Assembly: GCF_006714895.1 (NCBI RefSeq)
Contig: NZ_VFME01000001.1
Coordinates: 930,001-994,000 of the forward strand
Direction of reading: 5' to 3'
DNA length: 64,000 nt
From: Gramella sp. Hel_I_59
Lineage (GTDB): Bacteria > Bacteroidota > Bacteroidia > Flavobacteriales > Flavobacteriaceae
Positions 6,940-60,189 of this stretch are shown here, piece by piece. The position numbers and the translations under genes are program-made. Numbering within the stretch: the stretch's first letter is position 1; every line of letters begins with the position of its first letter. The notes under the pieces are model-generated. The model saw only the letters and a list, made by a program, of their open reading frames with translations. It had not been told where the DNA came from and did not search any database.

Positions 6940-8121
6940 CTATAAATTGAAATATTCAATATATGTGTTCAAATCCTTGTCGCCTCTTCCTGATAGGTTG
7001 ACCACAACGATATCATCTTTCTTAAATTTTCGGTTTTCAAAAACTGCCAGGGCATGGGAGGTTTCTATTGCGGGAATAATACCTTCCAGCTTAGCTAGTT
7101 CTAAACCGGCTTTCATAGCTGCTTCATCTGTAATGCTAATAAAGTCTCCTCTTTTACTGGTAAAAAGGTTAGCATGCATTGGTCCAACTCCAGGATAATC
7201 CAGGCCAGCTGAAATACTATACGGTTCAGTGATCTGTCCGTCGCCGGTTTGCATAAGAAGCGTTTTACTACCATGGATAATTCCGGGTTTCCCCAATGCT
7301 GAGGTTGCTGCACTTTCCCCGGTATCAATGCCTTTTCCAGCTGCTTCTACCGCGATGATCCCAACCTTTGGGTTATCGAGATAATGGTAATAGGCTCCGG
7401 CAGCGTTGCTACCACCACCAACACAAGCGATCACATAGTCAGGATCCTCTGTATTTTCCTTTTCCATTAATTGATACTTGATCTCTTCAGAAATAACACT
7501 TTGAAACCTCGCCACCATATCTGGATAGGGGTGTGGTCCAACTACTGAACCAATAATATAATGAGTATCTACAGGATTATTGATCCAGTCACGAATTGCT
7601 TCGTTAGTTGCATCCTTCAAGGTACGGCTACCGGATTTTGCAGGAATTACTTTTGCTCCCAGCATTTTCATTCTGGCAACGTTTGGTGATTGTCTTTCAA
7701 TATCCACCTCTCCCATATAAACGATGCATTCCATTCCCATTAAGGCGCAAACTGTTGCCGTCGCAACGCCATGTTGTCCAGCTCCGGTTTCAGCAATGAT
7801 CCTCTTTTTTCCAAGTCTTTGCGCCATCAGGATCTGCCCGACAGTGTTGTTAACCTTATGCGCTCCAGTATGGCAAAGATCCTCACGTTTTAAATATACC
7901 TTAGTTCCATAATGCTCGCTAAAGCGTTTTGCATAATATAATGGGGTAGGTCTTCCTACATATTCTCTCAGTAGATCATGGAACTCTTCCTGGAATGAAT
8001 CTTCCTGCATGATCTTGATATACCTTGAACGCAGTTCTTCTACGTTAGGATATAGCATTTCAGGAATATAAGCTCCCCCAAAATCCCCGTAATATCCTTT
8101 TTCATCTACCTGATAGCTCAT
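6940..8121 (-). CDS. trpB: Tryptophan synthase beta subunit
   Basis: This PLP enzyme condenses indole with serine to give L-tryptophan. The 393-residue length is typical. The PLP lysine is in HTGAHKVNN near residue 85, the phosphate-binding glycines are in [10 protein letters not shown] near 230, and the active-site Glu follows in AVEAAGKG. The N-terminal [11 protein letters not shown] is the usual opening. It is tightly packed between trpF and trpA, with 1 nt and 3 nt gaps. It is the ordinary TrpB1 form, since the paired trpA is present. Confidence 0.98.
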
Positions 8122-11250: not shown

Positions 11251-12645
11251 CTAAATTTCTTCAGCTATTTCCAGAGCCTTGGTAAGTGCTCCCAGTTTAT
11301 TATATACTTCCTGTAATTCATTCTCAGGCTTTGATTCTGAAACAACCCCGGCACCTGCCTGGTAATGCAATTCGTGATTTTTACTCACGAAAGATCTAAT
11401 GATGATCGCATGATTAAAATTACCTTCAAAATCCATAAAACCAATCGCGCCTCCATAAGCTGAACGATTCACATTTTCGAATTTTTCAATAAGTCGTAAA
11501 GCCATTGGTTTTGGAGCACCGCTTAAAGTTCCGGCAGGAAAAGTGTCTGCAACGATCTGTGGTGTTGGCACATTGGCGGCGATCTTTCCGGTGACTTTGC
11601 TAACTAAATGAATAACATGAGAAAAGAATTGAATTTCTCGGTAATTCTCAACCACAACATCACTTCCATTTCGGCTTAGATCATTACGTGCCAGATCAAC
11701 AAGCATTACATGTTCCGAATTTTCCTTGCGATCTGCGGCGAGTTCCTTGGCGAGCTCTGCATCTTTTTCATCATTCCCGGTACGTTTAAAAGTTCCGGCA
11801 ATAGGATGAATTTCAGCTCGCCCCTCGCTAACTATTAATTGAGCTTCAGGTGAACTTCCGAAGATTTTAAAGTTTCCGTAGTCAAAATAGAAGAGATAGG
11901 GGGAAGGGTTTACATTCCTTAGCGCCCGGTAAACATTGAATTCATCTCCCTTAAATTTTTGAGAGAAACGTCTTGAAAGTACCAGCTGGAATACGTCACC
12001 ACGTTGGCAGTGTTCCTTAGCAGCTTCTACAACATCACGATATTGATCATCATTCAGGTTAGAGTATGGCTGCTCGGTTCTGGAAAAATTATAGGAAGCG
12101 AAATTCTTCACCTTCAGCAGTTGTTCTATCTCCTCCAGTTTGGATTCAGATTTATAGCTATGGTCGAAGATATAAGCCTCGTTCTTGAAGTGGTTGATCG
12201 CGATAATGTTTTGATATACTGCATAATAAACATCCGGGATTTTTAAATCCTTTTCTTTGCGGTTGATCTCCACATTCTCGAAATACCGAACGGCATCATA
12301 TCCTATATAACCAAATATGCCATTATTGATAAACTTAAAATCTGAAGCATCAGCTTTAAAACGCTTGGAGAACTTCTGTATCGCAGCAGGAACTGAAACG
12401 GTTTTATCGGTTTTAGTCGTTTGAACCGTGCCGTCTGGCAGACTTTCGGTAATAATATCATTTTCCACCTTAAAGGAGGCTATAGGATTGCAGCAGATAT
12501 ATGAAAAGCTATTATCACTTGCATGATAATCACTACTTTCCAGCAAAAGACTGTTTGGATAACGGTCGCGAAGCTTCAAATAGATACTTACCGGAGTGAT
12601 AGTATCTGCAAGGATCTTTTTTGAAGTTGTCTTTAATTCGAACAT
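11251..12645 (-). CDS. trpE: Anthranilate synthase component I
   Basis: It converts chorismate plus ammonia to anthranilate, the first committed step of tryptophan synthesis. The 464-residue product has the N-terminal LLESSD segment (near residue 34) that in other TrpE proteins forms the allosteric Trp site, so feedback inhibition is likely retained. The chorismate-binding core shows PIAGTFKRTG, DLARNDLSRNG and GTLSGAPKPMA. It is the first structural gene of trpEGDCFBA, about 22 nt after the attenuator U-tract. The operon therefore has both enzyme-level and transcriptional control. Confidence 0.97.
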   Translation of the reverse strand: MFELKTTSKKILADTITPVSIYLKLRDRYPNSLLLESSDYHASDNSFSYICCNPIASFKVENDIITESLPDGTVQTTKTDKTVSVPAAIQKFSKRFKADASDFKFINNGIFGYIGYDAVRYFENVEINRKEKDLKIPDVYYAVYQNIIAINHFKNEAYIFDHSYKSESKLEEIEQLLKVKNFASYNFSRTEQPYSNLNDDQYRDVVEAAKEHCQRGDVFQLVLSRRFSQKFKGDEFNVYRALRNVNPSPYLFYFDYGNFKIFGSSPEAQLIVSEGRAEIHPIAGTFKRTGNDEKDAELAKELAADRKENSEHVMLVDLARNDLSRNGSDVVVENYREIQFFSHVIHLVSKVTGKIAANVPTPQIVADTFPAGTLSGAPKPMALRLIEKFENVNRSAYGGAIGFMDFEGNFNHAIIIRSFVSKNHELHYQAGAGVVSESKPENELQEVYNKLGALTKALEIAEEI

Positions 12646-12666
12646 TGAATCTTAATTTTTTTGAAT

Positions 12667-12695
12667 AAAAAAAGGCTTGTCGTGAGACAAGCCTT
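12667..12695 (-). terminator. trp attenuator terminator
   Basis: On the minus strand, AAGGCTTGTC, loop TCAC and GACAAGCCTT form a perfect 10-bp hairpin followed by a run of T. It lies between the leader peptide stop and trpE. Its loop region (12680-12686) is complementary to the 3' end of the leader ORF, so the hairpin should be conditional. Confidence 0.9.
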
Positions 12696-12731
12696 ATATA
12701 TCTATATATGAAATGGCGTATCAGCTCACGA
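12680..12731 (-). promoter_or_regulatory. trp antiterminator pairing
   Basis: TCGTGAG at 12725-12731, which includes the last sense codon and stop of the leader peptide, is exactly complementary to CTCACGA at 12680-12686 in the terminator hairpin. A ribosome stalled at the Trp codons would leave TCGTGAG free to pair and break the terminator. A ribosome at the stop codon would cover it and let the terminator form. Confidence 0.7.
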
Positions 12732-12782
12732 TTTATTGCGTAAGTTGCTCCACCACCAGTTATGTGTATTCGTTATAAACAT
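12726..12782 (-). CDS. trpL: trp operon leader peptide
   Basis: This 18-residue frame reads MFITNTHNWWWSNLRNKS and has three successive TGG codons at positions 9-11. It lies between a good promoter and a terminator in front of trpE, which is the arrangement of classical ribosome-mediated attenuation: Trp shortage stalls the ribosome on the TGG codons. The ATG is only 5 nt after the -7 box, so the mRNA may begin at or next to the AUG, with no ribosome-binding site. It was not in any list of long reading frames and was found by reading the leader. Confidence 0.88.
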   Translation of the reverse strand: MFITNTHNWWWSNLRNKS

Positions 12783-12787
12783 AGCTT

Positions 12788-12817
12788 CAAAGATAGAAAT
12801 CAATTATTTCTTATCAA
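12788..12817 (-). promoter_or_regulatory. trp operon promoter
   Basis: On the minus strand TTG (12815-12817), 19 nt and TATCTTTG (12788-12795) match the Bacteroidota -33/-7 consensus exactly. Transcription should begin within a few bases of the trpL ATG at 12782. Confidence 0.75.
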
Positions 12818-12862
12818 ACTAAATTTTAAAAAGAATCCCAAAGAATTACTCTTGGAGTCAAT

Positions 12863-13432
12863 TTAGAATTTCAAATTGATATCAAGGTCAAAATTGTCGT
12901 AGATCGTTTTGTCTCCAAGATTGTCAAAGAAACTACCTGACCCGTAACGAACGTCATATTTGGTTCTATCAATAGTTACCTGTGTAGTAGCCGTATCACC
13001 GTTCATGTTAAGATCAAAAGTTAAGGGGTGTGTTTGTTCCTTGATAGTAAGATCTCCAACAATTCCGTATTTACCATTACCTTTAGATGCAGCACTGGTA
13101 ATTACAAGTTTTGCTTTAGGATGATCACTTGTTCCAAAGAAATCATCTGACTTCAAATGACCTTCAAGTTTTTCTTTACTGTCACCAGAAAGGTCGGTCA
13201 CTGTAATAGTACTCATATCCATTACAAACTCTCCGCCAGTGATCTTGTCATCTTCCATCATTAGGTATCCGCTTTCCAGTTGGATAGTTCCTTCATGAGA
13301 ACCGGTCACTTTTTCTCCGGTCCAGTTAATAGTACTTTCAGAGGTTTTTACTTCTTTTTTTGAATTGGTAAATGCTACGGTAGTCAAAACTACCAGCATA
13401 ATTACTGCTGAATTAATTAATTTACTTTTCAT
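12863..13432 (-). CDS. YceI family secreted lipid-binding protein
   Basis: The 189-residue product has a signal peptide (MKSKLINSAVIMLVVLTTVAF) and the YceI lipocalin-like beta barrel. Typical features are STINWTGEKVTGSHEG near the start, MSTITVTDLSG, HLKSDDFF and the VGDLTIKEQTHP strand. Family members bind isoprenoid or other amphiphilic molecules in the periplasm. It begins 16 bp after the nitroreductase stop and is likely the third gene of a marR-nitroreductase-yceI operon, an arrangement suggesting a response to quinone-like or oxidative stress. Its ligand is unknown. Confidence 0.93.
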   Translation of the reverse strand: MKSKLINSAVIMLVVLTTVAFTNSKKEVKTSESTINWTGEKVTGSHEGTIQLESGYLMMEDDKITGGEFVMDMSTITVTDLSGDSKEKLEGHLKSDDFFGTSDHPKAKLVITSAASKGNGKYGIVGDLTIKEQTHPLTFDLNMNGDTATTQVTIDRTKYDVRYGSGSFFDNLGDKTIYDNFDLDINLKF

Positions 13433-59628: not shown

Positions 59629-59802
59629 GTGGAGTCGGAGTGGCTGGCTTCGCCTCAACCTTGTTCTCCCCATCCGGTAAATGCATCTGGCTGTCCTTTC
59701 AGTCCAGGTGTTTTGAAACAAAAAGATCTGCTCAGGTAAGTACCTGGCAGATCTTTTAAATTTTAATCCGCAGCCCGGCTGCGTTTAATTGTGGAGTCGG
59801 AG
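59629..59802. repeat. Partial duplication of the ssrA 3' end (GTGGAGTCGGAG)
   Basis: The 12-mer GTGGAGTCGGAG, which covers the acceptor end of ssrA at 59791-59802, is repeated at 59629-59640. The 150 bp between hold the ssrA terminator and a minus-strand frame with no start. This fits an old att site or element remnant. Confidence 0.5.
59721..59757 (-). terminator. ssrA terminator
   Basis: AAAAGATCTGC and GCAGATCTTTT form an 11-bp outer stem, with AGGTA/TACCT inside. It lies 35 nt after the tmRNA 3' end. Confidence 0.85.
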
Positions 59803-60189
59803 GGGTTCGAACCCTCGTCCAAACAAGCAATTCAGATGCTTTCTACACGTTTAGTTTTCACTTGATTGTCGATGCAAAGCCGGCCGAAAACCACCAACTT
59901 TACACGTATTCTCGATTAAGTTTCAGAAACTCATCAAGACCCTGAGCTTCCTATATTTACTTTATCGGTGCCTCTGTTGTGGATGCCGTAAATCAAGGCC
60001 TCCACGAGACATCTCGGCTCCCTGCCTTGCAGGGACTAAGTATAACCTACTGTAATTCGGTTACGCAGCCAAGGCGTAGTTATTCTCGCCGTTTGAAAAA
60101 GTGTGAAACATGAGATTTAAGAGCTATATCCCCGGCGCTCTACGTGCTTACAACTCAATTAGACTCGCTGTCAAAACCAAGTCGACCCC
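59792..60189 (-). ncRNA. ssrA: Transfer-messenger RNA
   Basis: The minus strand from 60189 begins GGGGTCGACTTGGTTTTGAC and ends with T-arm GAGGG-TTCGAAC-CCCTC and acceptor CGACTCC-A. GGGGTCG pairs with CGACTCC with one G-U. The tag frame at 60090-60061 reads GENNYALAA then TAA, the type known in Bacteroidota. The molecule rescues stalled ribosomes and marks the peptide for degradation. The terminal CCA is not fully encoded (ACAA follows), so it must be added after transcription. The length is about 398 nt. Confidence 0.96.

Follow-up and report, generated by a model that had tools for sequence, protein, structure and literature searches.

A predicted ribosome-mediated trp attenuator upstream of trpE in Gramella sp. 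Hel_I_59, with a putative near-leaderless leader mRNA

Results

We analyzed a 64,000-nucleotide stretch of the Gramella sp. Hel_I_59 genome (hereafter, the window) that carries a trp operon on its minus strand. The operon begins with trpE (11251..12645, minus strand), followed by trpG, trpD, trpC, trpF, and trpB; TrpG, TrpD, TrpC, and TrpB passed the curated NCBIfam cut-off, and TrpE and TrpF matched their own families below it. On the minus strand 5′ of trpE lie a promoter, a leader open reading frame (ORF), a pair of complementary words, and an intrinsic terminator, each where a first-pass annotation of the sequence had placed it. The leader ORF (12726..12782, minus strand) encodes MFITNTHNWWWSNLRNKS in 18 codons followed by UGA, and trpE starts 80 nt past this stop. 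Within it are three tandem Trp codons, TGG TGG TGG (12750..12758, minus strand), which are the presumed sensing site and also form part of a predicted default hairpin; a short ORF with tandem Trp codons is what characterizes a ribosome-mediated trp attenuator. The word TCGTGAG (12725..12731, minus strand) overlaps the end of the leader ORF and contains its stop TGA, and its partner CTCACGA (12680-12686, minus strand) lies in the terminator region. The terminator itself (12672..12695, minus strand) has a 10-bp stem, the loop TCAC (12685-12682), and 7 T, with the T run extending to 12667. The sole further occurrence of TGGTGGTGG in the window is at 7412-7420 (minus strand), within trpB. We also searched the window's genome for a His-run leader (five CAY codons) and obtained five matches, two of them overlapping; as none was attenuator-like, we claim no second attenuator. 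Elsewhere in the window, a tmRNA (59789-60189, minus strand) lies about 80 nt from a Flavo-1 RNA (RF01705; 60273-60354) on the same strand.

For comparison with relatives, we performed a TrpE scan and kept the best 80 of 582, which together with the window gave 81 sequences ranging from Gramella/Christiangramia (TrpE identity up to 88%) to other Flavobacteriaceae (down to 71%). In this set of the best 80 relatives plus the window, a Trp-run leader ORF and a terminator were found 5′ of trpE in 81/81 sequences; the word pair was 5 bp or longer in 81/81 and 6 bp or longer in 75/81. For one relative (L073) the script chose a different word for this count; TCGTGA/TCACGA is present there too. The first-pass annotation had proposed a check against related Flavobacteriaceae; comparison of their leaders showed both the Trp run and the word pairing to be conserved. 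The start of the word relative to the leader stop ranged from −10 to +7 and its reading frame varied too; because the word is kept even so, it is the RNA word and not the peptide end that appears to be conserved. Among 92 distinct leaders of the family, 7/7 word pairs formed in 47, 6 in 38, and 5 in 7, and at least 3/5 word bases paired upstream in the default fold in 91 (the exception being L077). Two further leaders of the window's own family (L137 and L140), with 5/7 word pairs each, lay outside the 92 and outside the partner-swap test described below.

In ten of the best 80 relatives, over 200 nt separate the leader and trpE (L013, L016, L017, L019, L020, L035, L040, L068, L081, and L083; 221 to 531 nt from leader stop to trpE), and a leader search confined to 400 nt misses seven of them. 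The extra DNA in these relatives lies after the attenuator, and several of these stretches begin alike (TTTCCGCGAAGG or similar), which suggests a shared repeat between attenuator and trpE in several relatives.

We next consider the predicted folds. The region 12650-12800 folded with a z of −3.9 relative to shuffled sequences, and 0/200 shuffles folded as well. The first-pass statement that one strong hairpin is enough is wrong: three alternative hairpins were predicted, as in the classical trp scheme, a default hairpin, an antiterminator, and the terminator. The default (1:2, protector) hairpin (12712..12757, minus strand) has an inner helix of CUUACG (12744-12739) with CGUGAG (12730-12725); when the leader is folded without a ribosome, CUUACG and part of the Trp codons pair with CGUGAG and the bases 3′ of it. 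The antiterminator hairpin (12680..12731, minus strand) has UCGUGA/UCACGA outside and GAUA/UGUC and GCC/GGC inside, and is predicted to take up the loop of the terminator and most of its 5′ arm. The 7-nt pairing described in the first-pass annotation is present as claimed, as the outer part only of this longer hairpin (12731-12680). The predicted antiterminator and terminator are mutually exclusive and show co-variation, as would be expected of an attenuator.

Stalled ribosomes were modeled by masking 12 nt beyond the A site, taken as the ribosome footprint. With the A site on the second or third Trp codon (W2 or W3), the freed word is predicted to pair with UCACGA, forming an antiterminator of −13.9 kcal/mol. 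At the point where 4 nt of the terminator 3′ arm have emerged, the outer-helix pairs of this antiterminator reach probabilities of 0.99-1.00 (0.83 for the outermost). In the fold without a ribosome, the default helix has a probability of 0.72-0.74 at this same point and of 0.98-1.0 at full length, and with a ribosome at the stop the terminator alone is predicted to remain. Once the whole 3′ arm is present, the terminator is favored in all states (−18 to −20 vs. −13.9 kcal/mol; antiterminator probability 0.0), so that the switch must be kinetic, decided during transcription. Stalling at W1 leaves a small 1:2 helix possible (0.92-0.95 at full length, 0.04 when 4 nt of the 3′ arm have emerged), and W2 or W3 should therefore give the clearest signal. 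The word sits where a terminating ribosome would hide it if, as stated in PMC4833913, such a ribosome covers up to 12 nt past the stop codon; masking of the word by a terminating ribosome, as the first-pass annotation proposed, is well supported by the comparison of leaders.

We then assessed co-variation, which the first-pass annotation had suggested seeking in both pairings. It was found in each: within the family, where the core word hardly varies, L038 carries the compensatory word pair TCGTAA/TTACGA, and 7/92 family leaders have changes on both sides of the terminator stem (GGCCTGTC/GACAGGCC, AGCCTGTC/GACAGGCT, and GGCTTATC/GATAAGCC in two leaders each, GACTTGTC/GACAAGTC in one). Other families gave the stronger evidence. 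Across the phylum, TrpE was sought in 148 genomes, of which 33 matched at 1e-100, and we took 29 loci besides the window's own (G037, G064, and G095 had a TrpE match without a locus and are outside the 29). A leader with WWW, WW, or WLW was present 5′ of trpE at 29/29 of these loci. In other families the words were unlike the window's yet fitted the terminators of their own loci, as in L136 (CGCTGTGA with TCACAGCG) and L141 (CGGGGTTCTG with CAGAACCCCG); these words were identified by eye and the duplexes computed. When partners were swapped among the 14 loci outside the family, 0/20,000 permutations were as good as the true pairing; with a single locus for each genus (12, all outside the family; L128 and L135 were left out as sharing a genus with L127 and L134), 0/50,000 were as good, a result that held after row and column centring. 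The mean leader-terminator duplex energy in these 12 genera was −16.2 kcal/mol with the own partner vs. −11.1 kcal/mol with swapped partners.

The signal was uneven at the level of single loci. The own partner was best both ways in only 4/14 (L127, L128, L136, and L139) and did not stand out in both directions in L130, L132, L142, and L143; in L130, L134, and L142 the duplex lay almost wholly on the 5′ arm, unlike in the window. L131 had no terminator by the script's rule and is included neither in the swap test nor among the 28 further leaders; by eye, it has a terminator with one mismatch and a 7-nt word match. In L127 and L128, which belong to another family, the word is located 25-28 nt ahead of the stop, with a second segment (AAGCC/GGCTT) closer to the stop, making a two-part antiterminator. 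In a masked-fold test against shuffles, with at most 3/60 shuffles reaching the observed value, 37/81 close and 5/28 further leaders passed by paired fraction and 71/81 and 18/28 by energy; for the window, 0/60 shuffles reached its paired fraction and 3/60 its energy. As the paired-fraction test is weak for single sequences, we relied on the swap test.

The element corresponds to a known RNA family, Bacteroid-trp (RF01692). This model matched the window at full length (1-131) with 46.8 bits (E = 7e-5), below its 49-bit gathering score, and a whole-genome search returned the same 46.8 bits at this element. Of the 80 relatives fetched, 19 were scanned, and 18/19 passed the cut-off at the orthologous place (L024 failed); all eight Gramella/Christiangramia loci given reached it. 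On this basis, the window's element is an orthologue of accepted members, though it falls below the curated score. Its placement agrees with that of the family, just 5′ of trp genes in Bacteroidota, with the nearest relatives in Flavobacteriaceae, and the sequence fits the consensus default hairpin including the UGG codons; some non-standard pairs are marked, and our own fold agrees. The window thus shares with RF01692 (Weinberg et al. 2010) its position before trp genes, the Trp-codon leader, the default hairpin, and the start of the terminator arm. The RF01692 model, in contrast, ends inside the terminator 5′ arm and covers neither terminator nor antiterminator, and its consensus has an A-rich stretch before the AUG where the window has a −7 box ending 5 nt before it.

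Searching 394 phylum genomes with RF01692, using Infernal's stricter filters, which lose some weak matches, gave a match in 43, of which 38 were above the cut-off. Under the same stricter filters, 13 of the 29 examined trpE loci, all of which have a Trp-run leader, were in genomes with an RF01692 match and 16 in genomes without one, which indicates that the model covers only part of the class. The first-pass remark that such attenuators are rarely described for flavobacteria needs qualifying: RF01692 is listed as a cis-regulatory motif of Bacteroidetes in PMC2864571, Bacteroid-trp is noted before the trp operon of Flavobacterium psychrophilum in PMC6414381, and PMC9723704 speaks of strong clues for leader-peptide attenuation before amino-acid operons in that species.

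Finally, we examined the promoter and the predicted 5′ end. The promoter consists of a −33 element, TTTG (12815..12818, minus strand), and a −7 box, TATCTTTG (TAnnTTTG; 12788..12795, minus strand), which ends 5 nt before the leader AUG. TTG occurred at the −33 spacing in 68/76 close leaders, against 13.3 expected. The word TAnnTTTG by itself is no commoner than chance (73 in the window vs. 69), and the promoter call therefore rests on conservation. The promoter named in the first-pass annotation is present, with its type corrected to that of Bacteroidota. A weak sigma-70 reading of the same bases was rejected as being at chance level (3 sites vs. 2.1 expected). PMC6847099 accepts flavobacterial promoters whose box and start are 4 or 5 nt apart, and PMC9723704 places the box at −12 to −5. 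Given a box that ends 5 nt before the AUG, the leader mRNA is predicted to be near-leaderless, with its 5′ end at or 1 nt before the AUG (5′UTR of 0-1 nt).

This spacing recurs among the relatives. The gap between box and AUG was exactly 5 nt in 34 of the 74 close leaders with a scored box and at most 6 nt in 40/74, vs. 2/38 background genes (other genes with a box within 60 nt, taken from the window and the same loci); the Fisher test gives a p value of 1e-7, an overstatement because the leaders are related to one another and orthologues recur in the background, where 14 genes share one gap. Seven of the 81 close leaders had no gap to score (L007, at a contig end, and L016, L017, L038, L053, L072, and L079). 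Start choice matters slightly: L025 has a gap of 0 with its first ATG and of 9 with the next, and taking the start nearest 8 codons before the Trp codons gives a gap of at most 6 nt in 39/74 instead of 40/74. Of the 74 close leaders, 40 have a predicted 5′UTR no longer than 2 nt and 54 one no longer than 5 nt; in 19 it measures 9 nt or more. For the 28 further leaders, the gap was 4-10 nt in 14, 16-20 nt in 9, and 32 nt in one, with no box in 4. A content over the 10 nt before the AUG was 72% for the 19 long-gap leaders and 29% for the 55 short-gap leaders, a difference that arises partly by construction, since in short-gap leaders these 10 nt take in the −7 box; between box and AUG only, A content was 61% vs. 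42%.

Discussion

Taken together, the element is a well-supported candidate for a real and complete trp attenuator of a known kind, as predicted from comparison among relatives. That a classical three-state, ribosome-mediated transcription attenuator controls trpEGDCFB is, in our assessment, very probable; the reading is based on the sequence parts, their conservation, their co-variation, and the predicted folds, and from these we infer the ribosome positions, kinetics, start site, and Trp response. The first-pass proposal of ribosome-mediated trp attenuation is in this sense well supported by the comparison of leaders, word pairing, and co-variation. In the proposed mechanism, RNA polymerase would start at the leader AUG or 1 nt upstream of it, and the almost leaderless 5′ end would be loaded with a ribosome. 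When Trp-tRNA is scarce, the ribosome would stall on the WWW codons and block the default hairpin, leaving UCGUGA and the following bases to pair with the 5′ arm and loop of the terminator, so that transcription would continue. When Trp-tRNA is plentiful, the ribosome would reach the UGA inside the word and cover it, and the terminator would form. Were no ribosome present, the word would be tied up in the default hairpin and the terminator would again form.

Terminators are common between genes, and it could be asked whether the hairpin is a plain terminator, or a small RNA unit between genes, next to a Trp-rich ORF that is incidental. Such an arrangement would account for the intrinsic terminator, yet it would account neither for a Trp-run ORF in every one of the close sequences and of the further trpE loci nor for the co-variation of word and terminator across families, and we regard it as highly improbable. 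RNA-binding proteins, T-boxes, and riboswitches control trp genes in other phyla, and sensing of the leader by one of these would make translation irrelevant. There is very little likelihood of this here: no Rfam T-box or riboswitch matched 12600-12900 at E values up to 10, no match to the TrpR family was obtained in the window's genome, and a conserved ORF with Trp codons would be left unexplained.

The attenuator could also be right and its mRNA not near-leaderless, if transcription began further upstream or the peptide started at an upstream in-frame TTG, which would yield LISIFEAMFITN... The chance frequency of the TAnnTTTG word speaks for a longer 5′ end of this kind, which we nonetheless consider unlikely: the TTG extension has the TAnnTTTG box inside it, at the recurrent 5-nt gap, the −33 element is conserved, and a comparable spacing is published, whether as 4-5 nt between box and start (PMC6847099) or as a box at −12 to −5 (PMC9723704). 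Leaderless mRNAs, to which the predicted start would come close, are rare in the phylum. They are put at 5.5% in F. psychrophilum (PMC9723704); in B. thetaiotaomicron about 3.7% of 5′UTRs are under 10 nt (PMC7366714), and in F. johnsoniae 87% of predicted transcripts have a leader of more than 10 nt (PMC6847099). A-rich upstream bases are described as favoring initiation in Bacteroidota (PMC7366714, PMC6847099). Short box gaps in some leaders and A-rich long gaps in others suggest that two start modes may serve one attenuator. We think it somewhat probable that many of these flavobacteria, together with several further families in the phylum, translate the trp peptide from a near-leaderless mRNA, and that other lineages use an mRNA with an A-rich 10-16 nt before the AUG, giving one attenuator with two loading modes.

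The trp attenuator of E. coli has three alternative hairpins, Trp codons, a stop near region 2, and a terminator with a U run, all of which the window shares. Unlike in E. coli, the antiterminator pairing in the window would span the 5′ arm and reach the terminator loop and the top of the 3′ arm, and promoter and ribosome loading differ, the start being predicted as near-leaderless. The trpL leader of Sinorhizobium meliloti, an alphaproteobacterial element, has a different promoter type from the window's. Its RNA (rnTrpL) is stated in PMC7298713 to have a 5′ end that begins with the ATG of the ORF, a 5′ end that in the window is only predicted. We found no report of a leaderless trp leader in Bacteroidota among the titles and abstract openings returned by searches of open-access PMC papers.

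The analysis goes beyond RF01692 in three respects: a complete antiterminator, the way in which leader and terminator co-vary from family to family, and a start that is predicted to be near-leaderless. The comparative set also provides the terminator, which the RF01692 entry lacks. If true, near-leaderless loading would let a ribosome engage the RNA once the AUG emerges and would allow tight coupling without a Shine-Dalgarno site. Because classical attenuation needs ribosome and polymerase together, a leader retained across these families implies that the two are coupled close to the promoter, in organisms with no Shine-Dalgarno sites in their mRNAs.
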